Part shown: in pieces, positions 9,352-20,830 of the stretch
Position numbering within the stretch: the first letter of the stretch is position 1
How the letters are laid out: each line of letters opens with the position of its first letter
Source: a virus
Strand: one strand, 5' to 3'
IMG/VR virus record: IMGVR_UViG_3300025108_000319
Span: 1-26,707 of that record
DNA: 26,707 nt
The notes under the pieces: generated by a model
Database searches by the model: none
Seen by the model: only the letters and a program-made list of their open reading frames with translations
Told to the model about the DNA's origin: nothing
Translations under genes and position numbers: made by a program

Positions 9352-10323
9352 ATGGATCTGATTGATTCCAAATACGTTGGATTAATTTCGTCACGCCTAC
9401 AAAAATTCAAGAAGGTTAAACCAGACCTATACAACTTCCGTTGTCCTATCTGTGGAGACTCGCAGAAGAACAAGAACAAGTGTCGTGGGTATATGTATGT
9501 TATGAAGAATAACACCAACTTCAAGTGCCATAACTGTGGTGCTAGTTTGTCATTGAATAATTTTATCAAGAAACTTGATACTACTCTGCACAAGCAATAT
9601 ACCCTTGAGAAGTTTAAGGAAGGTCATACTGGTAAAAATTTTACTGTTGAAGAACCTGTGTTTAACTTCAAGAAACCAGTTTTTAGGAAGAAGTTGAATC
9701 TACCTAAAGCATCTGAAGATCCTAATGCAAGCAAATACTTGCTAGAAAGAAATCTCAATCCAGAAAAATTTTACTTTGCTGACAAGTTCAAGGAGTGGAC
9801 AAATAGCAAAAAACAGACGTTTGACACAACATATAGAGATGAACCGCGTATTATTATACCAATGTATGATACTGAAAAGAATCTTATTGGGTTTCAGGGG
9901 AGAAGTCTAATTCCTAACTCTGTTAAATATATCACTGTGATGTTGAATGACCATTCTCCGAAACTATACGGACTTGATAATGTTGATGAAAAACAACCGA
10001 TTTACATCGTTGAAGGACCGTTTGACTCCACGTTCGTGGAAAACGCTGTTGCTATGTGTGGGTCCGATGTTGATATTCGGTCGTTTGGTTGGGGCGATCA
10101 TATTTGGGTTCTTGATAATGAACCACGTAACAGAGAAATCGTCAACCGAATTGCCAAACTCATCGATAGAGGAGAGAAGGTAGTAATCTGGGGAAACAAC
10201 ATCGTAGAGAAAGACATCAACGATATGGTCCTTGCTGGACATGACGTTATGTCTATGATAAAATTGAATACATATGCTGGATTAGAAGCAAAAATCAAAT
10301 TTAACACTTGGAAAAAAGTATGA
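9352..10323 (+). CDS. 61: gp61-type DNA primase
   Basis: This is a DnaG-family primase that makes RNA primers for the lagging strand together with the gp41 helicase. The 323 residues show an N-terminal zinc module with C31xxC34 and C59xxC62. A TOPRIM region follows: YIVEGPFDST (E221, D225) with the acidic pair LDNEP (D255, E257) and downstream acidic residues near DINDM (288-292). Length is close to T4 gp61. The TGA overlaps the nrdA ATG (ATGA at 10320-10323), so primase and RNR are coupled. An early promoter lies directly upstream. Confidence 0.92.
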   Translation: MDLIDSKYVGLISSRLQKFKKVKPDLYNFRCPICGDSQKNKNKCRGYMYVMKNNTNFKCHNCGASLSLNNFIKKLDTTLHKQYTLEKFKEGHTGKNFTVEEPVFNFKKPVFRKKLNLPKASEDPNASKYLLERNLNPEKFYFADKFKEWTNSKKQTFDTTYRDEPRIIIPMYDTEKNLIGFQGRSLIPNSVKYITVMLNDHSPKLYGLDNVDEKQPIYIVEGPFDSTFVENAVAMCGSDVDIRSFGWGDHIWVLDNEPRNREIVNRIAKLIDRGEKVVIWGNNIVEKDINDMVLAGHDVMSMIKLNTYAGLEAKIKFNTWKKV

Positions 10324-12617
10324 GCAACGGGACAAAGGTAATTAAGAGAAATGGAAATACTGAACCTCTTGATCTGAATAAACTTCACGTAATGGTGGAG
10401 GAAGCATGTAAAGACCTGGCAGGTGTTTCTGCCTCTCAGGTTGAAATGCAATCTGGCATTCAATTTTATGATGGTATTACTACTGGAGAGATTCAGGAGA
10501 TCCTGATTCGCTCTGCAAGCGACTTGATCGATCTGGATCACCCCAACTATCAGTTCGTCGCTGCTCGCTTGCTCCTGTTCGCTCTCAGGAAGCAACTCAA
10601 CGGTCGTAGACACGAGACACCTTCTGTTTATGAGCACACTAAACTCTGTGTGGAGAAAGGAGTTTATGATGCGGAAATTCTTGATCTCTATACTAAAGAA
10701 GAGTTTGATAAACTTGAATCATTTATCGACCATCAACGCGACTATCTGTTTACATATGCTGGTTTGCGTCAGGTAGTCGATAAATATCTTGTGCAGGATC
10801 GTAGTACGGGTGCTCAATATGAGACACCGCAGTTCATGTATCTGTTGATTGCTGCCACTATTTTTTCAAAGTATCCAAAAGAAACTCGTTTAGATTACGT
10901 AAAAAAATACTATGAAGCAATCAGCAGACACAAACTCAACATCCCAACGCCAATCATGGCAGGGGTCAGAACCCCACTGCGTCAGTTTGCGAGTTGTGTT
11001 CTCGTTGATATTGATGACTCCCTCGATTCTATCTTTAGCAGTGACATGGCTATTGGTAAATATGTTGCACAACGCGCAGGAATCGGCATCAACGCAGGTC
11101 GAATCCGTGGCATCAACGCTAAAATCAGAGGCGGAGAGGTACAGCACACAGGTGTGGTCCCCTTCCTTAAAAAGTTTGAATCAACTGTACGATGCTGCAC
11201 ACAAAACGGCATCAGAGGTGGTTCTGCTACAGTTCACTTTCCTATCTGGCACCAAGAAATAGAGGACATTATTGTTCTCAAAAACAACAAGGGTACAGAA
11301 GATAATCGGGTACGCAAACTTGACTACTCAATCCAAATTTCAAAGATTTTCTACGAACGTTTCATTGCGAATGGAGAGATTAGCCTCTTCTCACCGCATG
11401 ACGTACCAGGTCTCTATGATGCTTTTGGTACTGATACATTTGACGATCTCTATGTACGCTATGAATCAGATGAGTTTACTCCAAGAAAAACTGTCGGGGC
11501 ACAAGATCTTTTCTTAGATATTCTGAAGGAACGAGCAGAGACTGGTCGTCTTTATATTATGAATATTGACCATTGCAATTCTCACTCATCCTTTATGGAT
11601 AAGATTGAGATGAGTAACTTGTGCCAGGAGATTACTCTTCCTACTAAACCTTTACAACATATTGATGATGAAAACGGAGAAATTGCTCTCTGCATACTTA
11701 GTGCTGTTAATATCGGAAAAATTAGGGATCTGGAAGATCTTGAAATTCTTTGCGATCTTGCTGTTCGCAGTCTCGATGAACTTATTGATTTTCAAAACTA
11801 CCCCATCAGAGCAGCAGAAATCGCCACAAAAGCACGCCGCTCACTTGGAATCGGTTATATCGGTTTAGCGCACTTCCTGGCGAAGCAGGGGTTCAATTAT
11901 AGTGAAGAAGGTGCCTGGGATGCAGTTCATAAACTGACTGAATCTTTTCAATATTATTTGATTTCTGCTACAGTAGAACTTGCCAAGGAAAAAGGTGCCT
12001 GTGAATACAGTAACCGAACAAAGTATGGAAATGGAATTCTTCCAATCGATACATATAAACATGACGTGGATGAAATAATCTCCAATGAGCTTCAGTATGA
12101 TTGGGAAGATCTTCGACAACGGGTACTTACCCACGGAGTTAGGAACTCAACATTGTCCGCACAGATGCCTTCAGAGAGCAGTTCCGTTGTGTCAAATGCG
12201 ACCAATGGAATTGAACCGCCTAGAGGATACTTGTCCATTAAAAAGTCCAAAAAAGGACCTCTTAAGCAAATTGTTCCACAGTATGCAACATTGAAAAATA
12301 ACTATACTTTGCTATGGGATATGGAATCCAATCGTGGTTATATTAATATTGTTGCTATAATGCAGAAGTTCTTCGACCAAGCAATTAGTGGCAATTGGAG
12401 TTATAATCCAGAGAACTATCCTGACAATGAAGTTCCAGTTTCAGTAATGGCACAAGATCTTTTAACTACATACAAATACGGTTGGAAGACTTCATATTAT
12501 CAGAACACATACGACTTCAAGACTGACGAGGTAGAAGATACTAAGGAAAGTCTTGATAATCTAATCACTCAACTAGAAAACGCCGAGGAGGAAGACTGTG
12601 AGTCTTGTAAAATTTAA
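10320..12617 (+). CDS. nrdA: Class Ia ribonucleotide reductase large subunit
   Basis: It reduces ribonucleoside diphosphates to deoxyribonucleotides with NrdB. The 765 residues start at the ATG coupled to gp61; an ATG at 10308 would need a longer overlap. An ATP-cone is present at the N-terminus (KVIKRNGNTEPLDLNKL). Catalytic features match E. coli NrdA: RQFASCVL (active-site Cys), NLCQEITLPT (Asn, radical Cys and Glu), EIALCILSA (second redox Cys) and KTSYYQNT (the tyrosine pair of the radical pathway). The C-terminus ends EDCESCKI with a CxxC pair for thioredoxin/glutaredoxin reduction, a closer spacing than the CxxxxC of E. coli. It appears complete and functional. It supplies dNTPs for the phage replication genes in this window. 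Confidence 0.95.
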   Translation: MSNGTKVIKRNGNTEPLDLNKLHVMVEEACKDLAGVSASQVEMQSGIQFYDGITTGEIQEILIRSASDLIDLDHPNYQFVAARLLLFALRKQLNGRRHETPSVYEHTKLCVEKGVYDAEILDLYTKEEFDKLESFIDHQRDYLFTYAGLRQVVDKYLVQDRSTGAQYETPQFMYLLIAATIFSKYPKETRLDYVKKYYEAISRHKLNIPTPIMAGVRTPLRQFASCVLVDIDDSLDSIFSSDMAIGKYVAQRAGIGINAGRIRGINAKIRGGEVQHTGVVPFLKKFESTVRCCTQNGIRGGSATVHFPIWHQEIEDIIVLKNNKGTEDNRVRKLDYSIQISKIFYERFIANGEISLFSPHDVPGLYDAFGTDTFDDLYVRYESDEFTPRKTVGAQDLFLDILKERAETGRLYIMNIDHCNSHSSFMDKIEMSNLCQEITLPTKPLQHIDDENGEIALCILSAVNIGKIRDLEDLEILCDLAVRSLDELIDFQNYPIRAAEIATKARRSLGIGYIGLAHFLAKQGFNYSEEGAWDAVHKLTESFQYYLISATVELAKEKGACEYSNRTKYGNGILPIDTYKHDVDEIISNELQYDWEDLRQRVLTHGVRNSTLSAQMPSESSSVVSNATNGIEPPRGYLSIKKSKKGPLKQIVPQYATLKNNYTLLWDMESNRGYINIVAIMQKFFDQAISGNWSYNPENYPDNEVPVSVMAQDLLTTYKYGWKTSYYQNTYDFKTDEVEDTKESLDNLITQLENAEEEDCESCKI

Positions 12618-12639
12618 GACAAACAATGAGGATAGACCA

Positions 12640-13782
12640 ATGGTCGAATCCATGACTGTTTTTAATTCAGAAGTGGTTGATACCAAAAAGCAACCAATGT
12701 TCTTTGGTAAACCTTTGGGTATTCAGAGATACGATTCTTATAAGTATCCAATCTTTGATAAACTCACCACACAACAACTAGGATACTTCTGGAGACCTGA
12801 AGAGGTATCTCTCCAGAAAGATCGTTCGGATTATCAAACTCTTCGTCCAGAGCAGAAGCATATTTTTACTTCTAATTTGAAGTATCAGATTATGCTAGAT
12901 TCTGTACAAGGGCGTGGTCCTGGTATGGCATTCATTCCTTACTGCTCACTGCCTGAGTTAGAAGCATGTATGGAAGTCTGGGGATTTATGGAGATGATCC
13001 ATAGTCGCTCATATACTCATATCATCAAAAACATTTATGCAGATCCTTCAGATGTGTTTGATCACATTCTGACTGACGATCGCATTGTTGAACGTGCTAT
13101 GAGTGTCACAGAAGCATATAATGACTTTATCAATGCAGCACATCATTATGATAGTACTAATGATTGGCAACACGCAATAGAAGGAGTTCCTTATGCACAA
13201 AGTTCAAGATATGAACTCAAACGCAAATTGTTTAAAGCAGTTGCAAACGTTAATATTCTTGAAGGTATTCGTTTTTACGTATCATTTGCATGCAGTTTTG
13301 CTTTTGGCGAACTCAAACTTATGGAAGGAAGTGCAAAAATCATCTCACTGATTGCTAGAGATGAGAACCAACACCTTGCCATTACTCAGAATATTCTGAA
13401 GAAGTGGAAAGAAGGTGATGATCCTGAGATGGCACAAATCTTCAAAGAAGAAGATCGTTGGTTGTATTCTATGTTTGAAAAGACCGTAAACGAAGAAAAA
13501 ATTTGGGCAGAGTATCTGTTTAAAGATGGATCTATGATTGGTCTGAATGATAAACTGCTCCAGCAGTATGTCGAATGGATTGCCAATCGTAGAATGAAAG
13601 CAATTGGACTTAAACCGATTTATGACATACCCGCAAAGAATAACCCACTCCCCTGGACGGAACATTGGATTTCGTCGAAGGGTCTTCAGGTCGCTCCTCA
13701 GGAGACTGAGGTTGAGTCTTATATCGTCGGAGGAATTAAGCAAGATGTCAAAAAAGATACCTTCTCAGGATTCCAACTTTGA
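12640..13782 (+). CDS. nrdB: Class Ia ribonucleotide reductase small subunit
   Basis: This subunit carries the diiron-tyrosyl radical. Iron ligands and radical site align with E. coli NrdB: MLDSVQGR (Asp), EVWGFMEMIHSRSYTHI (Glu, His and the radical Tyr), ILEGIRFYVSF (Glu) and ARDENQHLAI (Glu, His). The start is uncertain. The ATG at 12640 is preceded by GAGGA at 12628-12632 with good spacing and gives 380 residues. A GTG at 12598, preceded by GAGGAGG inside the end of nrdA, would give 394. An ATG at 12652 best matches the length of the E. coli N-terminus. The gene follows nrdA closely and overlaps the next small ORF by 38 bases. Confidence 0.94.
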   Translation: MVESMTVFNSEVVDTKKQPMFFGKPLGIQRYDSYKYPIFDKLTTQQLGYFWRPEEVSLQKDRSDYQTLRPEQKHIFTSNLKYQIMLDSVQGRGPGMAFIPYCSLPELEACMEVWGFMEMIHSRSYTHIIKNIYADPSDVFDHILTDDRIVERAMSVTEAYNDFINAAHHYDSTNDWQHAIEGVPYAQSSRYELKRKLFKAVANVNILEGIRFYVSFACSFAFGELKLMEGSAKIISLIARDENQHLAITQNILKKWKEGDDPEMAQIFKEEDRWLYSMFEKTVNEEKIWAEYLFKDGSMIGLNDKLLQQYVEWIANRRMKAIGLKPIYDIPAKNNPLPWTEHWISSKGLQVAPQETEVESYIVGGIKQDVKKDTFSGFQL

Positions 13783-13960: not shown

Positions 13961-13984
13961 GAGGACTTAGGTCCTCTTTTTTTT
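13961..13984 (+). terminator. Rho-independent terminator of the gp61-nrdAB operon
   Basis: The six-base stem GAGGAC/GTCCTC with a TTAG loop is followed by eight T residues. It begins on the base after the stop codon of the acidic ORF. The T-tract ends on the first base of the next late promoter. Confidence 0.88.
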
Positions 13985-13991
13985 ATAAATA
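13984..13991 (+). promoter_or_regulatory. T4-type late promoter (TATAAATA)
   Basis: A perfect late element, extended to TATAAATATCTAAAAA, lies 22 bases before the ATG at 14014. It shares its first base with the T-tract of the terminator upstream, so early transcription stops exactly where late transcription starts. Confidence 0.88.
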
Positions 13992-14013: not shown

Positions 14014-15156
14014 ATGAAAAGATTTAATGAGTTTATGAATATGATTAAAGAAGACGTTGACGTTGCTACAATTAAAAAGATGACTGAGGATCAGTTTAAA
14101 GAACTCCTCAAGAGATCTACTGCCTCTAGAAGGAATCAATTGAATGCAATGCGTCAATCTAATTCAATGAGGATAAAACCTCAAGCACAACCACCAAGAG
14201 TTGCTCCTAGATTGCCAACAGCACCACCACCATCAGCAGCAACAACTACTACAAGACCATCTCTTTTGAAAAGAGTGGGTGGGGGTGCATTAAAACTTGG
14301 TGCTTTTGCTGCGGCAGATACTGCAGCAGAAATAGGAATCAGTAATATAAAAGATCCAAAAGCTCAGAAAACTGCGAGAGTTGCAAAAGACTCTGCAATA
14401 AATACTGTCGCTTTGTATGCAAATCCAATCACTTCTATTGCTCTAGGTGGTGCTGGATCCAGTTCCGCAGCACCGAGGGGTAGAAGGCAATATGGGGACT
14501 ATACTATTAGTAAAAGAATTGATACTTCTGGTGGAGAATCTAAATTAGATCAGTACTTGGCAACAGGGAGAAATAAAAAGGGATATACTTATAATGATCC
14601 TAAAGCCGAAAAAATTTACGCTAATAAGACAGACAGATCTGAAAAGGATGAACCTTTTAGAATTGGAGTAGCAAAATATAAAGGTGAAGTACGGCCAGTT
14701 GAATGGGGTTCTGTTGCTGGTGAAAAGAAAGTTGGAACACCTAAGGACGTTGCTGCAGTCAAAGCAAGACAAAAAGCAGGTCAGCAAGGTGCCTACGGAT
14801 CTAGACAGGGTGTTGGCATCGTCGGCACTGGCGGCAAAATGGATGTAGATAAAAAAAATAATACTATTACTAGTGGAGGTAAAACTGCAAAACTTCCTAG
14901 CACTAAAATTCTTTCTGGTGGTAGAGTTGGTGATCTTGCTTATAAAAACGGTAAACCTGTTTACCTTGCAAGAGCAAGTATGGCACAAAGAGGCAATCAA
15001 AATCTTTTCTCCAGACTTTCTAGAGCAACTGGTGTTGGTGGACAAAGAGAAAGAGACGCTGCAGCACTTGCAAAAGAGCGTCAACAAGCAACAAAAAATA
15101 CTATCAAATATAGAAAAGAGATTGGTACGAGTGGAGGATCTATAAGTGCAAAGTGA
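14014..15156 (+). CDS. Putative internal virion protein with capsid-targeting-like leader
   Basis: The 380-residue protein starts MKRFNEFMNMIKED, resembling a T4 capsid-targeting leader with a possible I-x-E-type cleavage site (IKE, 11-13). A basic helix (15-50) and a Pro/Ala/Thr linker (57-82) follow. Next is an Ala/Gly-rich hydrophobic hairpin-like region (about 89-149: LKLGAFAAADTAAEIG, then ALYANPITSIALGGAG). A Lys/Gly-rich region leads to a module RVGDLAYKNGKPVY (304-317) shared with the 583-residue protein two genes downstream. The C-terminal helix is basic. A strong late promoter precedes it. Composition suggests a disordered DNA-associated head protein that may be ejected; no enzymatic motif is seen. 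Confidence 0.75.
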   Translation: MKRFNEFMNMIKEDVDVATIKKMTEDQFKELLKRSTASRRNQLNAMRQSNSMRIKPQAQPPRVAPRLPTAPPPSAATTTTRPSLLKRVGGGALKLGAFAAADTAAEIGISNIKDPKAQKTARVAKDSAINTVALYANPITSIALGGAGSSSAAPRGRRQYGDYTISKRIDTSGGESKLDQYLATGRNKKGYTYNDPKAEKIYANKTDRSEKDEPFRIGVAKYKGEVRPVEWGSVAGEKKVGTPKDVAAVKARQKAGQQGAYGSRQGVGIVGTGGKMDVDKKNNTITSGGKTAKLPSTKILSGGRVGDLAYKNGKPVYLARASMAQRGNQNLFSRLSRATGVGGQRERDAAALAKERQQATKNTIKYRKEIGTSGGSISAK

Positions 15157-15157
15157 T

Positions 15158-15165
15158 TATAAATA
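15158..15165 (+). promoter_or_regulatory. T4-type late promoter (TATAAATA)
   Basis: TATAAATA, again extended to TATAAATATCTAAAAA as at 13984, begins two bases after the preceding stop and 19 bases before the ATG at 15185. Confidence 0.88.
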
Positions 15166-15184
15166 TCTAAAAATAGTGTGAGTA

Positions 15185-15532
15185 ATGAAAACATATAAAC
15201 AATTTGTTATTGAATCAAATCAATCAAAGTTGATTGTTGAAGGTTGGGGTGCTGTATTTAATGTTTTGAGGGGTGGATCTAAAGCTGGTGCCTTCACAAG
15301 CGCATTTAATACTGCAATGGTAGGACAAGCTGCTTTGAGAGGATTTGAATCTGCGAGAGATGGTGACAAATTTGGTGTGTATAATGCTGTTGCACAAGGA
15401 CTGCCAGCGACAAATCCATACACTACTGCTATTAAACTTGGTGCCATAGGTGTTGATCAGATGAGATTAAAAAAACGTGATGATGAAAGAAAAAAGAAAG
15501 AAAAAGCAAAACTTGAAATCCTTAGAAAATAA
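15185..15532 (+). CDS. Small putative internal virion protein with capsid-targeting-like leader
   Basis: The 115-residue protein begins MKTYKQFVIE-S, the closest match in this window to the T4 internal-protein capsid-targeting sequence as I recall it (MKTYQEFIAE). The likely prohead-protease cut is after residue 10. The mature part has an Ala/Gly-rich hydrophobic region in two halves (about 24-58 and 72-97, including ATNPYTTAIKLGAIG) separated by a charged loop. It ends in a very basic helix (LKKRDDERKKKEKAKLEILRK). The ATNPYTTAIKLGA segment resembles YANPITSIALGGA in the protein upstream, pointing to a common origin. It has its own late promoter. Confidence 0.78.
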   Translation: MKTYKQFVIESNQSKLIVEGWGAVFNVLRGGSKAGAFTSAFNTAMVGQAALRGFESARDGDKFGVYNAVAQGLPATNPYTTAIKLGAIGVDQMRLKKRDDERKKKEKAKLEILRK

Positions 15533-15560
15533 TTTAAGAAAAAACTACAAAGTATCTGAA

Positions 15561-17312
15561 ATGGCATCACTAAACGAAGGAAGAAAAAAATCAAATTTTG
15601 GCACTAAGAGTAGTGTTGGTAATGTTGATATAGAGACTTCCCGTTCAAAGGTGCAAGATCCTGCCAATACTACTGTAAACCCAAAGAAGGGATCACCTAA
15701 AAATAGTGGTCAGGGATTTAATCCAACCAAAGATTCCGCAGCACGATATGCCGGTAAACCAGATATTAAACAGCAGATAAAAGTTGCTGATGATATTAGA
15801 TCTCGTGTAGGAGCAGATCCTACGCCAAGAAAAGCAGCTTCTAATATTATTGGTGGTGGTAAAGGTCCTGATGCTGATGACATTAAAGTTGGTGGAGAAA
15901 CAGCAAAACCTGGAAGAGGTCAAAGATATCGCCAAGCAAGACCGTCAGATGTAAAGTCTACTGGTATTGGGACTAGAAGAAATCCAGCATCAGTATCTAA
16001 ACCAACAGCAGTTAAACAGTCTGAGGTATCTAAGAGGGCAGCAAGATTTAGACAGTCTTTTGGTACGCCTACTGGTGCAAACCCCCTTACAGGGGCACCA
16101 ACGTACAGATCACTTCCTGCAACGACTAATCTACCAAAGGGTGTTGGTGGAAGAGCACCAAGTTCAAGGCAGTATAGTAAAGTAAAAGTTGGTGACCTAA
16201 ATGCAAAGGAAATCCTTAAAAATATGGGTACCGGAGCATCTAGTTCTACTGCGACTTCTGGATCAAAACTTCCAAAAATCAAACCTATTCCAGTTAAAAC
16301 TATTGCTAAAGTGAAGCAATCCCTACCGGCACCAAAACCATCTTTCACAATTTCTGGTACCACAAAGACAAAAACTCCAGCAAAATTACCATCCACTTCG
16401 AGTACTGTGGGTACTCCCGGTAAGACTTTGAAATTTGGACAGACTAGCAGCGGATCGTTCTCATACAAACCAGGCAATAACCCAGTATCAGTATCTGCAA
16501 ATCCAACAAGAAGAAGAGTAAGTGGTGCTGCTGGTCCTTCTAGTAGAATTGATAGTGGTCCTAAACCCCCCTCAACTAAAAAAAATCCGGTAACACCACA
16601 ACAAGCAAGACAAAAAGTAGCAAACACTCCTCCAGATTTAGGACGAAGATCTACTAGTATAAGGAAGGGCAGTAGTACATATAAACCACCAACAGTCAAA
16701 AAGGCAAGTAGTGGTGCAGGTTCGGGTGCTTTCTATGGTGCTTTTAACGCATATGGTGCAGCGGAAAGAGAAAAAGCACGAGGACAAACTGCTGAAAGAC
16801 AAACAAATGCAGCACTTGCTTCTGGTACAGGTTCTACATTAGGATCTATTGCCACCACTGCATTATTACGTGGTGTTATTGGAAAAAGAGCATCAGCGTT
16901 TCTTGGACCAGTTGCTGGTTCTCAACTTGGTGATGCTGCTTCTGGTTATGTAATGGGAGCAAGTGCTTCCGATAAAAAGTGGATGGCAAAAGCAAATCGT
17001 CAGGTACAAACTGGAACTCCTGCTCAATCTGCTACTTCACGAAGTGGAAATAAGGCAATTGTTCGTGATGCTAATAATAAAGAACGAGTTGGATATCGTG
17101 CTTTTAAGGATGGTAAAGCAGTATACAAGCATGGTAACGATCCTTCTTCACTTGCATATACTTCATCTAATCCTCTTGAGAGAATTGGTAGAAGAACTGC
17201 TGGTGCAGGAGTTCCATATGTCTCTGATTATTTGAAGGGATATTATAATAGAAGGGATAATGAAACTAGAAAGGCAAATGTTGCTGCTCAAAGATCTAGA
17301 GCGGGCAACTAA
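15561..17312 (+). CDS. Large basic disordered virion-type protein
   Basis: The start chosen is the ATG at 15561 (583 residues). The open frame extends back to 15477 but this would overlap the previous gene. The first 380 residues are low-complexity, rich in Ser, Gly, Pro, Thr, Lys and Arg, with no clear fold. Residues about 383-470 form an Ala/Gly-rich hydrophobic region (FYGAFNAYGAAE, LGSIATTALLRGVIG, AFLGPVAGSQLGDAASGYVMG), the sort of sequence that could insert into a membrane. RVGYRAFKDGKAVY (509-522) and the following RRTAGAGV match a module in the 14014 protein. No late promoter is visible directly upstream, so it is probably co-transcribed from 15158. The start codon lacks a clear Shine-Dalgarno. 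Confidence 0.75.
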   Translation: MASLNEGRKKSNFGTKSSVGNVDIETSRSKVQDPANTTVNPKKGSPKNSGQGFNPTKDSAARYAGKPDIKQQIKVADDIRSRVGADPTPRKAASNIIGGGKGPDADDIKVGGETAKPGRGQRYRQARPSDVKSTGIGTRRNPASVSKPTAVKQSEVSKRAARFRQSFGTPTGANPLTGAPTYRSLPATTNLPKGVGGRAPSSRQYSKVKVGDLNAKEILKNMGTGASSSTATSGSKLPKIKPIPVKTIAKVKQSLPAPKPSFTISGTTKTKTPAKLPSTSSTVGTPGKTLKFGQTSSGSFSYKPGNNPVSVSANPTRRRVSGAAGPSSRIDSGPKPPSTKKNPVTPQQARQKVANTPPDLGRRSTSIRKGSSTYKPPTVKKASSGAGSGAFYGAFNAYGAAEREKARGQTAERQTNAALASGTGSTLGSIATTALLRGVIGKRASAFLGPVAGSQLGDAASGYVMGASASDKKWMAKANRQVQTGTPAQSATSRSGNKAIVRDANNKERVGYRAFKDGKAVYKHGNDPSSLAYTSSNPLERIGRRTAGAGVPYVSDYLKGYYNRRDNETRKANVAAQRSRAGN

Positions 17313-17341: not shown

Positions 17342-18295
17342 ATGCATTACAATCTTTCTGAAGAGCAAAAGACATTTTTGCATATATCTTACTCTATGCT
17401 TGAGGAAGGTTATGATGTAGATCAGATCATGGAATTTTGGAATTTAAATGATGAATCTAAAGTATTAGAAATTTGCGAATCGATAACTTTAAGTGAGACA
17501 ATTGATACAAGTAATCCTGACTTTTTACTTATATGTGAAAAAGGAGGTATGGGTATGTCGGGATTCTTGATGAGACTTTTTGGTAGAGGTGGAAAGGTAC
17601 GTCTCCGCAAACCTCCCTCAACAACTAAAGGTGGAAGACCTATTACCAGTAGTGCAACAAGACCAGGTGCCAAAGTGGATCCTACTAAACCACCATCACT
17701 GATTAGAAAAGTTAAAGATAAGATACCAGCTGCTCAAAAAACAAAGATCAAACAAGGTGCTGCAGTTGCGGGTGCTGCAGGTCTTGTTACTCTTGGTACA
17801 AAAGTCGCTTTGGATAACAAGTTAATTCCTGGCATATCAGATCCTAGTACTGATTCAAAGGCAGATACATCAGATCCAGAAGAGAGAGCGGAAACGCCGG
17901 AAGAAAAAAAATCTAGAGAGCAAAGAGAAGCAGAAAAAGCAGCGGCAGATAAAGCAGCGGCAGATAAAGCAGCAGCAGATGAAGCAGCAAAAGCAAGTTC
18001 ATCTTCAAATAACAAATCTCCTGGTTGGTGGAGATTGCAAAATCAACCAAAAGATCTTTATAAGAACAGTCCTGGATATCGGGTAAGTCTTAAAGCATAT
18101 AAGAATATTAGGGCAAATCCCACTCCTTCAATTTATGATCACTATGAAGTGATCGCAGACTATCTGATCAAAGAAGGACATGCTTCCGATATTAAAGAAG
18201 CAGACTACGTAATGAAGCAATTGGATGAAGAGTTCATCCAAAGCATTATCGAATCTTCTTGTGGATCACATAAGAAGAAAAAGAAGAAGAAGTAA
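17342..18295 (+). CDS. Virion-type protein with helical end motifs and poly-Lys tail
   Basis: In this 317-residue protein, residues 7-47 form a helical motif including SYSMLEEGYDVDQIMEFW. A basic Pro/Thr/Lys linker follows, then one Ala/Gly-rich hydrophobic stretch (138-156). An acidic-to-Ala/Lys region carries a KAAAD repeat (199-213). A C-terminal helical motif follows (269-303, IADYLIKEGHASDIKEADYVM) and seven terminal lysines. The two end motifs share the pattern Y-x-L-x-x-E-G and may be duplicates. I recall the C-terminal motif type from other cyanophage virion-type proteins, function unknown. The stop codon is adjacent, without a gap, to the stop of the convergent minus-strand gene. Confidence 0.75.
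   Translation: MHYNLSEEQKTFLHISYSMLEEGYDVDQIMEFWNLNDESKVLEICESITLSETIDTSNPDFLLICEKGGMGMSGFLMRLFGRGGKVRLRKPPSTTKGGRPITSSATRPGAKVDPTKPPSLIRKVKDKIPAAQKTKIKQGAAVAGAAGLVTLGTKVALDNKLIPGISDPSTDSKADTSDPEERAETPEEKKSREQREAEKAAADKAAADKAAADEAAKASSSSNNKSPGWWRLQNQPKDLYKNSPGYRVSLKAYKNIRANPTPSIYDHYEVIADYLIKEGHASDIKEADYVMKQLDEEFIQSIIESSCGSHKKKKKKK
17936..17980 (+). repeat. Three tandem 15-bp repeats coding for KAAAD
   Basis: Three copies of AAAGCAGCGGCAGAT lie in tandem, the third with one G-to-A change, followed by a degenerate fourth. They code for a helical Lys/Ala segment in the poly-Lys-tailed protein. Confidence 0.85.
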
Positions 18296-18655: not shown

Positions 18656-18663
18656 TATTTATG
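18656..18663 (-). promoter_or_regulatory. T4-type late promoter, minus strand (CATAAATA)
   Basis: On the minus strand CATAAATA overlaps the stop codon of the 723-residue gene and ends 15 bases before the ATG of the 114-residue gene. It gives the last gene of the cassette a separate start of transcription. Confidence 0.72.
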
Positions 18664-20830
18664 GTAAATCAACCAAGAACGGAGTAATCCAATCTTCGCT
18701 AGAATTTGTTACTGTAGTAATGGTAATATTTTTTTCATTTAACTTGGCAACAAACGCATCATAAGATGCTCTAACTGTTTGAAGTGTCATACTTCCAGAT
18801 CCATCAATAAACAGAGCGATAGAAGAACCTTCTGGAAGATCATCTATCTTACAAATCTTGTACCAATCAGTTGCATTTGTAGCGGTTCCATTATCTCTAT
18901 TTACAATTACTGGTCCAAAGGTCAGTCCATTTGCATTTGTTCCAGGTATGGTTGATGTATCATTGATAGTGATATCTGCAGATCTTGCAAAAATTGGATT
19001 TGTATAACTACCAGCTCTAAATGCAACATAAAAAGTTTCAAGACCTTCTGATGTAAAGTCTGCATATATTGGAATTGTAAAGGTGCTAGAATTTCCATAT
19101 CCAGAATGATATCCAGTTTGAACTAATGTCTTGAGATCTGCCCAAGGATATGAGAAATCTTCTGGAATATTATTAACGCCAATGGGGAATGTTCCACTAA
19201 CTGCTTCTAGTGTCGCATAAACCGGACCACTTGGCATGAATGTACCAATACCAGTTACTGGATGTCTAGGATTTCCAAATGTAACTGTTAAATCATCACC
19301 TTCATCTACTAAAGTTTTATCCGTTGTTACATCAAATAATAAGTTTACATCTGTTACTTGTAATGTTGCAAATATAATTGCAGGATCATTATTGCTATGA
19401 TATCTTTCGCGAAGTATTATTCTAAAAGTATCATTCTCATCTTCACGGAAGTCATTGGCTGCTCCTATTCTAAATGTAGTTGCAGATCCTACTATGGTAA
19501 TAACATGAGAATTACTGGTATAGAGTATGCCATCTTGTTCGTTATAAAAACCAAAATCTCTAGGATCTTTATCACTATTAGTTCCAGGTTCTTCATCAAA
19601 CCATATTTTAAATTCTGTACCTGTAGCAATATTTGTTGTGTTTAATGTAACTGTTACTAATTCTCCTTCTTCGGCAATATTTGTTACTATACCAGATTGA
19701 TTTGTTAGTATAAAATTATAAGATGGAAAAATATCATTGACAGTAATAGTTGGTGTTGTTGTTACTGCCGCACCAGAAGTAGAACCAGTTCTAATTGTGA
19801 CATTAAAGTTTTCAGTTCCTTCGGATCCAGGAGGTTCTGCTACTAACGCTCGGGAGAATGTAGCAATACCACCAGTTGTGGTACCATTACCAACAATATT
19901 GAATGATCCTGTTAAACTATTATCTGTAAAGTCTGCTGCTACAGTTGTTCCAGAAGTGCTAAAGTACAGCGTAGTTCCAGATGCTATACCTGTTGTATTA
20001 ACAGTAAATTCAACAGACGATCCTTCATTTACAACTGTTGTTGATACTCCAACAGAATACGATGCTACAACATCATTAACTGTAATATCATCAGTTCTTG
20101 TGACAACTCCAGCAGTTGTTGAGTCTGTTAAAATGACAGTACGGAATGTCTCTGGACCTTCCGTTACACCATCCAGTACAATCGTTCTGGTTACTGTTGC
20201 AATACCGCCACTAGAAGTTCCATCACTAACAATGGTAAATGATCCAGAGTTTGGTGATATTAAATCGGATCCAGTGGCACTTGTCCCAGTACTTCCAACT
20301 TCAGTGTTGTAATATAATGTAGTGCCAATATTTACACCTTCAGTTGTGACTACGAAATTGATTGTACCACCTTCATTTACATTTTTTGAAGAAGGTGTTA
20401 CTTCATATATTGGGACACTAGAACTTTGTAGTAATGCACCACCAAGACCTTTAATTGTTAATGCCCTTCCGCGAGCAATAGGTATATTTTGATTTAATGT
20501 ATATGTTGATCCATCTTTAGTGACACCTTGATCTTCACCAACAAATGTAAGTAGTACTGATGTAGATCCAAAACTTACAGTTACTCTGTCGTTTGTTAAT
20601 GCAGGTAAGTAAAATAAGGTTTCATTTGCTTCATCATTAGAAATATCAACAGTTTCAAAGTTGTCAAAAGGTATTACTCTAACGTCATCTGACGTACTAA
20701 TCCCAACTGCCTTTTCAGATAGAATTGCATCAATATAAAATTCAGGTATAGTTGTATTTGCAAACTTGGATTTAAATTTCCTTAACCAAGTTTTAAAACT
20801 AGTTCTTTGTGCTAATGTTGGTTTTGACAT
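18659..20830 (-). CDS. Calx-beta-like repeat adhesin with short vWA-type end domain
   Basis: The 723-residue protein has an N-terminal anchor region (1-135, unassigned). Four beta-sandwich repeats of Calx-beta type follow (about 140-254, 256-367, 368-495 and 496-626). Each has an early NEG/EEG/DEG motif (NVNEGGTINF, VVNEGSSVEF, VDEGDDLTV), a late E-G-x-E-x-F-type motif and an I-x-V-N-D-like terminal strand. The C-terminal part has a vWA-type metal site SIALFIDGSGSM (D676, S678, S680), but only about 45 residues follow, so the vWA domain is much shorter than usual. Such repeats form elongated rods in surface proteins and bind calcium. Three bases separate it from the gene upstream; AGGTGG precedes its ATG. 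It is probably a tail-fibre or whisker-like virion protein. Confidence 0.8.
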   Translation of the reverse strand: MSKPTLAQRTSFKTWLRKFKSKFANTTIPEFYIDAILSEKAVGISTSDDVRVIPFDNFETVDISNDEANETLFYLPALTNDRVTVSFGSTSVLLTFVGEDQGVTKDGSTYTLNQNIPIARGRALTIKGLGGALLQSSSVPIYEVTPSSKNVNEGGTINFVVTTEGVNIGTTLYYNTEVGSTGTSATGSDLISPNSGSFTIVSDGTSSGGIATVTRTIVLDGVTEGPETFRTVILTDSTTAGVVTRTDDITVNDVVASYSVGVSTTVVNEGSSVEFTVNTTGIASGTTLYFSTSGTTVAADFTDNSLTGSFNIVGNGTTTGGIATFSRALVAEPPGSEGTENFNVTIRTGSTSGAAVTTTPTITVNDIFPSYNFILTNQSGIVTNIAEEGELVTVTLNTTNIATGTEFKIWFDEEPGTNSDKDPRDFGFYNEQDGILYTSNSHVITIVGSATTFRIGAANDFREDENDTFRIILRERYHSNNDPAIIFATLQVTDVNLLFDVTTDKTLVDEGDDLTVTFGNPRHPVTGIGTFMPSGPVYATLEAVSGTFPIGVNNIPEDFSYPWADLKTLVQTGYHSGYGNSSTFTIPIYADFTSEGLETFYVAFRAGSYTNPIFARSADITINDTSTIPGTNANGLTFGPVIVNRDNGTATNATDWYKICKIDDLPEGSSIALFIDGSGSMTLQTVRASYDAFVAKLNEKNITITTVTNSSEDWITPFLVDLP

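Follow-up and report, generated by a model that had tools for sequence, protein, structure and literature searches.

A family of late, basic and probably internal head proteins in T4-like cyanophages, most of them with a T4-type capsid targeting sequence

The window analysed here is a 26,707-base fragment of a T4-like cyanophage, IMG/VR record IMGVR_UViG_3300025108_000319, in which nrdA and nrdB are followed by four genes on one strand in the order P0001, P0003, P0002 and P0004 (17342-18295). The names nrdA and nrdB are used because the same gene order occurs in the annotated phage S-SRM01, with an NrdB identity of 81%. The proteins P0001 to P0003 are all basic, with isoelectric points (pI) of 10.0-10.9, and P0001 and P0002 end in a shared domain, here called the module, which together with the N termini of the proteins that carry it is the subject of this analysis (Table 1). 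The module spans 110-140 residues at the C terminus, more than the roughly 60 estimated in the first-pass annotation of the window. It was found in 44 IMG/VR loci by a profile scan and in 3 named freshwater cyanophages, the Synechococcus phages DSL-LC02, DSL-LC03 and S-SRM01, whose proteins match the C terminus of P0001 or P0002.

The relationship was first suggested by a 14-residue motif, RVGDLAYKNGKPVY at residues 304-317 of P0001 (DNA 14923-14964) and RVGYRAFKDGKAVY at residues 509-522 of P0002 (DNA 17085-17126). These are the residues given in the first-pass annotation, although the DNA start lies at 14923 and not at 14925, and the two copies are identical at 9 of 14 positions and similar at 11. 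Taken alone, the motif pair is borderline as sequence evidence of homology: the top local alignment between the complete proteins scores no better than chance (Smith-Waterman score 53, shuffle mean 62), and the best ungapped 14-mer between them, which is the shared motif, has a score of 44 that equals the top of 400 uniform shuffles (44) and is below the top of 400 local shuffles (46), while BLASTP gives the motif match an E value of 0.068. Since pairwise proof failed or stayed borderline, profiles built through intermediates were used instead. A hidden Markov model (HMM) of 16 S-SRM01-type sequences, the kind of profile search that had been proposed as a check, recovers P0001 (E 8.8e-19) and P0002 (E 1.8e-15) and also matches S-SRM01 gp270 and both DSL proteins, WJZ48284.1 and WJZ47875.1, with the best unrelated E value among 925 open reading frames (ORFs) being 0.025. 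Compared head-on, P0001-type and P0002-type sequences match only weakly (HMM E 0.0011; hhalign probability 0.9), and it is by way of the intermediates that homology of P0001 and P0002 is secure at the sequence level.

In an alignment of 30 C termini, the invariant core of the module comprises a hairpin (G..VY) and one downstream arginine. The trailing segments described earlier are present in both window proteins (SRATGVGG and RRTAGAGV, 22-25 residues on and followed by a basic helix), but across the wider family only the arginine is invariant. The P0002-type hairpin in loci L009 and L010 has a longer turn (RVGYASKLTGSDGVTRTVY), as is expected of a beta-hairpin. In the case of P0001, the AlphaFold2 model (142 residues, 27 sequences) has six strands at model positions 38-81 and a helix at 106-132, with a predicted local distance difference test score (pLDDT) of ~70-80 in strands and helix and a mean of 61; the P0002 model (220 residues, 30 sequences) has strands at 130-161 followed by helices, with a mean pLDDT of 55. 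Structure prediction had been proposed as a second check, and the two segments share the last beta-hairpin, short helices and the long basic helix, with S-SRM01 protein A0A879R456 as the sole viral structure that either model matches significantly (E 5.1e-8 and 2.8e-6). The predicted elements common to both proteins agree with the earlier description of a discrete folded module, although the moderate model confidence makes a discrete fold likely and no more than that. Among solved structures, Foldseek returned none under E 0.46 and VIA-align gave Z scores of 2.0-2.3 only, which does not imply a novel fold. Searches of Pfam-A and PHROGs with the window proteins and ten relatives gave no convincing family over the module, the weak matches falling mostly in low-complexity parts, and in cellular genomes 143 stretches fit the motif pattern and 0 were relatives.

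A tree of 30 modules separates into two clades with support of 100/100, one containing P0001 and the other P0002, which is a long branch. Module genes occupy two genome sites, one following nrdB and the other flanked by DNA ligase and ThyX, and these labels were set by hand from the neighbours (15 nrdB, 14 ligase-ThyX, 1 unknown; three of the ThyX labels are based on ligase alone, and two of the nrdB labels on adjacent late genes alone). Each clade is found at both sites, and the well-supported branches require at least five site changes, so the duplication suggested at first pass holds and the gene relocates. Judged from the module sequences, both clades are old and the window holds one member of each. 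Shuffling, which had been offered together with duplication, finds no support, as no unrelated architectures were seen with the module and it always forms the C terminus of one family.

The N termini of the family resemble the T4 capsid targeting sequence (CTS). Mutation mapping of the T4 CTS, in the parts of PMC9026906 drawn on here, assigns residues 4 and 7 to targeting and residues 8 and 10 to processing, and these are the positions that are conserved in the module family. There are 50 module ORFs, 40 of them distinct, of which 4 are truncated at the contig start and 36 have a 5' end, and the T4 CTS pattern MKx[FY]xxF begins 32 of these 36. The other four are P0002, two ORFs of contig IMGVR_UViG_3300050343_000191, and L015, where a CTS lies just upstream in a different frame. 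That contig (L004/L006/L008) is closely related to the window and contains sequence errors, with an nrdB-P0001 fusion that lacks the CTS and a G run in P0002. The P0001 N terminus has M8 at its processing site, and its first IxE ends at position 13, whereas P0003, which has homologues in loci L009, L010 and L056, has Y4, F7, V8 and E10. Processing residues of the V8/E10 type (hydrophobic 8, Glu 10; (L/I)xE) are present in most relatives, with L038 lacking E10. Calling everything outside the module low-complexity overlooked the CTS of P0001, as well as a conserved Gly/Ala-rich stretch.

A CTS matrix of 10 positions was trained on 22 distinct module-protein N termini and applied to the 1577 ATG frames of T4, where ranks 1-4 are gene 61.1 (22.3), ipIII (19.5), ipII (19.5) and ipI (10.1), with the next frame at 4.4. 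Because scoring module proteins with this matrix is in part circular, training was repeated with one clade at a time; those four T4 genes again come first, and all held-out N termini of the other clade score at least 11.1. The top three of 617 starts in the window are P0005 (5028), P0001 (second, 22.7) and P0003 (18.6), and of these P0001 was in the training set while P0003 and P0005 were not. T4 gene 61.1 (NC_000866, 18966-19130, minus strand), a hypothetical protein of 54 aa beginning MKTFKEFIKED, scores like the known internal proteins, and on its sequence it is a candidate for a head protein that has so far been overlooked; nothing on it surfaced in a limited literature search.

Of the 34 CTS-type ORFs in the window and the loci, 22 have the T4-type late promoter sequence TATAAATA at -25 to -30; for the remaining ORFs of at least 200 aa in the same loci the figure is 23 of 148, counted anywhere within 100 nt. 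The sequence precedes P0001 and P0003, which on these motifs would be expressed late, and it is not found before P0005. The pI lies between 10.2 and 11.2 in all 32 CTS-bearing module proteins.

Table 1. Features of the window discussed in the text (CTS, capsid targeting sequence; the arrow marks the predicted cleavage point)
Feature	Position	Strand	Description
P0005	5028..6305	+	425 aa; CTS MKSFFQFLNE↓S and NMNAT-like nucleotidyltransferase, PF01467 E 1.2e-6
nrdA	10308-12617		upstream of P0001
nrdB	12598-13782		upstream of P0001
TATAAATA	13984..13991	+	T4-type late promoter, 30 nt before P0001
P0001	14014..15156	+	380 aa, pI 10.4; CTS, disordered linker and C-terminal module, clade 1
CTS-like N terminus of P0001 (MKRFNEFMNMIKE)	14014..14052	+	F4, F7; Glu at 13
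P0001 module, beta-strand core with RVGDLAYKNGKPVY	14839..14970	+	residues 276-319; AlphaFold2, pLDDT ~70-80
P0001 module, long basic helix	15043..15123	+	residues 344-370; AlphaFold2
TATAAATA	15158..15165	+	27 nt before P0003
P0003	15185..15532	+	115 aa, basic; full CTS MKTYKQFVIE↓S; without module
P0002	15561..17312	+	583 aa, pI 10.9; clade-2 module protein; without CTS
Gly/Ala-rich stretch before P0002 module	16704..16964	+	conserved among clade-2 relatives
P0002 module, beta strands with RVGYRAFKDGKAVY	17037..17132	+	residues 493-502, 508-524; AlphaFold2
P0002 C-terminal basic helix	17214..17306	+	residues 552-582; AlphaFold2

P0005 is predicted from its sequence to be a second kind of head cargo in the window. 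Its relatives occur in 529 phage records; 80 of 204 relatives were fetched, the active-site motif gave an ORF in 73, and the best-scoring Met before that motif was taken, with the result that 70 of the 73 scored IMG/VR loci have a CTS-scoring Met (score of at least 8). A CTS is also present in the NMNAT-like proteins of P-SSM2, S-SM2, S-SRM01 and S-SCSM1 (15.2-21.9), and NMNAT-like proteins appear in the three published cyanophage virion lists (PMC10665884, PMC9602691, PMC9146016).

These lists, used here as given in the tables and records of the three sources, allow the CTS to be compared with virion content. In S-CREM2, for which Table 3 of PMC10665884 gives 52 virion proteins out of 219 coding sequences (CDS), the CDS scoring at least 5.8 are ORF154 cytidylyltransferase (14.2), ORF6 SAM hydrolase (10.0), ORF14 kinase (9.5), ORF136 (9.2) and ORF13 (5.8), and all five are on the virion list (p 6.5e-4); four unannotated frames are also above the cut (11.7, 7.3, 6.2 and 5.9). 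The S-SZBM1 list has 30 virion proteins of 218 (PMC9146016 Table 1), and its cytidylyltransferase starts MRFRQFIIEA, a CTS pattern one residue short that the matrix scores at -14.9. In S-SCSM1 the record marks 48 of 282 CDS as virion, where the paper says 45 (PMC9602691). Pooled over the three phages, 6 of 10 CTS-scoring CDS are listed, compared with 130 of 719 overall (p 0.0035), and the tail and baseplate proteins of the three lists all have matrix scores below 0. Residues 12-75 of six P0001-type proteins, a range that excludes the CTS, were made into an HMM, which among 3459 ORFs of S-CREM2, S-SZBM1, S-SCSM1 and T4 found S-CREM2 ORF136 (E 3.4e-6; next E 0.19), a protein detected in the virion by 8 unique peptides according to PMC10665884.

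Some further observations were made on these phages. Four adjacent virion-detected genes of S-CREM2 (L060, 7704-13331, minus strand) are ORF15, which starts MNFSEFNES, ORF14 kinase and ORF13, which carry a CTS, and ORF12, a Cas9-like nuclease that has PLRFASFMAE↓A near its N terminus, with a CTS-related motif at residues 18-25; the four resemble a cluster of cargo genes whose products would include a packaged Cas9-like protein. The S-SZBM1 genes 191 and 192 (L066, 22311-23125) and S-SCSM1 gene 30 (L152, 44215-44535) are short, CTS-type and near virion genes, and 191 and gene 30, both outside the virion lists, share MK(S/T)FKxFxSESVNISGDFNGNLY.

Taking homology, the CTS match, the late-promoter motifs, the basic charge and the virion-detected relative of the N-terminal half together, all of them read from sequence, we give a probability of about three in four (0.76) to the reading that P0001 and P0002 are two paralogues from a family of late-expressed, highly basic proteins carried inside the heads of T4-like cyanophages (Kyanoviridae). 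Transcription would start from T4-type late promoters, the first 10-13 residues, as the counterpart of the T4 CTS, would bind the prohead core so that the protein is loaded before DNA packaging, and a prohead protease of the gp21 type would cleave after the Glu of (L/I)xE. The mature basic protein, mostly disordered, would remain with the packaged DNA and enter the host along with the genome. Cleavage, head location and ejection are proposed here by analogy with T4, and the role of the C-terminal module, a small beta-sheet and a basic helix, as the DNA- or core-binding part is a guess.

In the case of P0002, the protein begins MASLNEG, as its orthologues in L009 and L010 begin MASLSEG, and lacking a CTS it is to be regarded as a relative and not a member of the CTS-loaded internal head proteins. 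It has a near-N-terminal LxE↓G site, MASLNE↓G, and by sequence the MASL(N/S)E↓G of these three proteins resembles a propeptide of only a few residues carrying a protease site, so that P0002 might be loaded by way of a short Alt-like propeptide or through contact with a partner. Virion-detected S-CREM2 ORF160 begins MSSLSER, which resembles this start and offers a lead. An alternative GTG start at 15477 would extend P0002 to 611 aa.

A number of points weigh against this internal head protein reading. The absence of the CTS from P0002 and its orthologues is one, and the Met in place of Glu at position 10 of P0001 is another. The matrix ranks T4 Alt 149th and gp24 18th, and since it does not find them it detects the IP-type signal only. 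The 5.8 cut was chosen with the S-CREM2 scores already in view, and raising it to 8 reduces the pooled count to 5 of 9 (p 0.012). In S-SZBM1, genes 191, 192 and 64 are above the cut and 0 of 3 are in the virion list, while in S-SCSM1 the NMNAT passes and is listed and gene 30 passes and is unlisted, giving 1 of 2; the passing CDS missing from the lists encode small proteins (70-165 aa), and size might or might not account for their absence. Finally, ORF136 shares the CTS and the following stretch, that is the N-terminal half, with the family and lacks the module, and virion detection so far reaches only this N-terminal relative and no module protein.

The alternative that survives best, though we consider it unlikely, is that these are ejected pilot proteins whose Gly/Ala-rich stretch enters the host membrane and aids DNA crossing, with the module as a head anchor. 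Podophage ejection proteins help DNA cross the host membrane, the module of clade 2 and of several clade-1 proteins comes after a conserved Gly/Ala-rich segment, and head-cargo status is common to this idea and to the internal head protein reading. The hydropathy peak is low, however, with 1 of 32 proteins reaching 1.6 over 19 residues, AlphaFold2 confidence is ~35-50 across much of the Gly/Ala-rich stretch, and the tail of a T4-like myovirus spans the envelope. Considerably less probable is that they are ordinary structural proteins of the tail or neck whose CTS resemblance has another reason; they are indeed late genes, the module gene adjoins other large basic late genes, and CTS genes and virion lists overlap poorly in two of the three phages, but the top four T4 genes are internal head proteins with no tail gene among them, and the negative scores of the listed tail and baseplate proteins point the same way. 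It is very improbable that P0003 and P0002 are one frameshifted protein in which P0002 would have the CTS of P0003: the gap is 28 nt and the P0002 frame is open upstream of its ATG, yet the P0002 start MASL(N/S)EG is conserved, and the fusion was rejected on the spacing of the starts, which is 376 bases in the window (remainder 1) and leaves a remainder of 2 in L009. A chance resemblance of low-complexity proteins, which the borderline pairwise statistics alone would allow, is scarcely credible for the shared 14-mer, being refuted by the profile evidence through intermediates; the kept gene order beside nrdB and the two supported clades also speak against it.

A family with the T4 head-loading CTS suggests that cyanobacterial viruses pack helper proteins likewise. 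We lean slightly toward the broader proposal that the T4 CTS represents an ancient loading code of general use, which T4-like viruses of cyanobacteria have in common with T4 and in which it marks a set of genome-accompanying proteins, and that the module is a second signal holding the family on DNA or core. The set would then include the NMNAT-like proteins of many lineages, the SAM hydrolase and kinase of S-CREM2, and the large basic family described here.

Two other features of the region were observed. A second recurring module, YDxVxxYLxxEGxADTxxEAxxIMxxM, is present in P0004 and in S-SRM01 gp269 and gp271 (47.5% identity and E 2e-7 between the window and gp271); the sites are window 18134-18250, L003 3815-5011 and 6475-8073, and L015 upstream of 1551. 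At 18659-20830 on the minus strand, in the opposite orientation to the late cluster, the window encodes a protein of 723 aa in which segments of the type TTxGxxxGTTLYY recur.

Among known systems, the closest likeness is to T4 IPI, IPII and IPIII, which have an N-terminal targeting peptide of the same pattern, are basic, and have bodies that are poorly conserved between phages, according to the parts of PMC9026906 drawn on here. The T4 proteins are 95-193 aa long with a pI of 8.9-9.5, whereas members of this family are 344-498 aa (583 for P0002), have a pI above 10 and carry a conserved C-terminal module, for which T4 ORFs gave no clear match with the module HMMs (best E 0.025). T4 Alt, an injected ADP-ribosyltransferase with a short propeptide, is a model both for P0005 as an enzyme carried in the head and for the MASLNE↓G start of P0002, although the matrix ranks it low and no Alt-like domain was found in the window proteins. 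The ejection proteins of P22, T7 and SPN3US are kept in the phage head and delivered to the host cell, and they are likened to this family in these two respects by description only. The NMNAT-like, SAM-hydrolase and kinase proteins of cyanophage virions share the CTS in the three S-CREM2 proteins and the S-SCSM1 NMNAT, and differ in lacking the module; the parts of PMC10665884, PMC9602691 and PMC9146016 drawn on here mention no targeting peptide for them. A literature search, mostly at listing level, returned no description of a CTS for cyanophages, and in the single paper where the terms "capsid targeting sequence" and "cyanophage" both occur, cyanophages are mentioned in a cited title only. 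The loading mechanism is already known from T4; as far as that search goes, its use by cyanophages and the two-clade family with a C-terminal module are new. If the CTS is such a general loading code, it would provide a sequence-based list of likely injected cyanophage proteins, and a recognisable loading peptide would both supply candidate injected proteins for very abundant cyanobacterial viruses and carry the T4 loading rule beyond enterobacterial phages into the Kyanoviridae.

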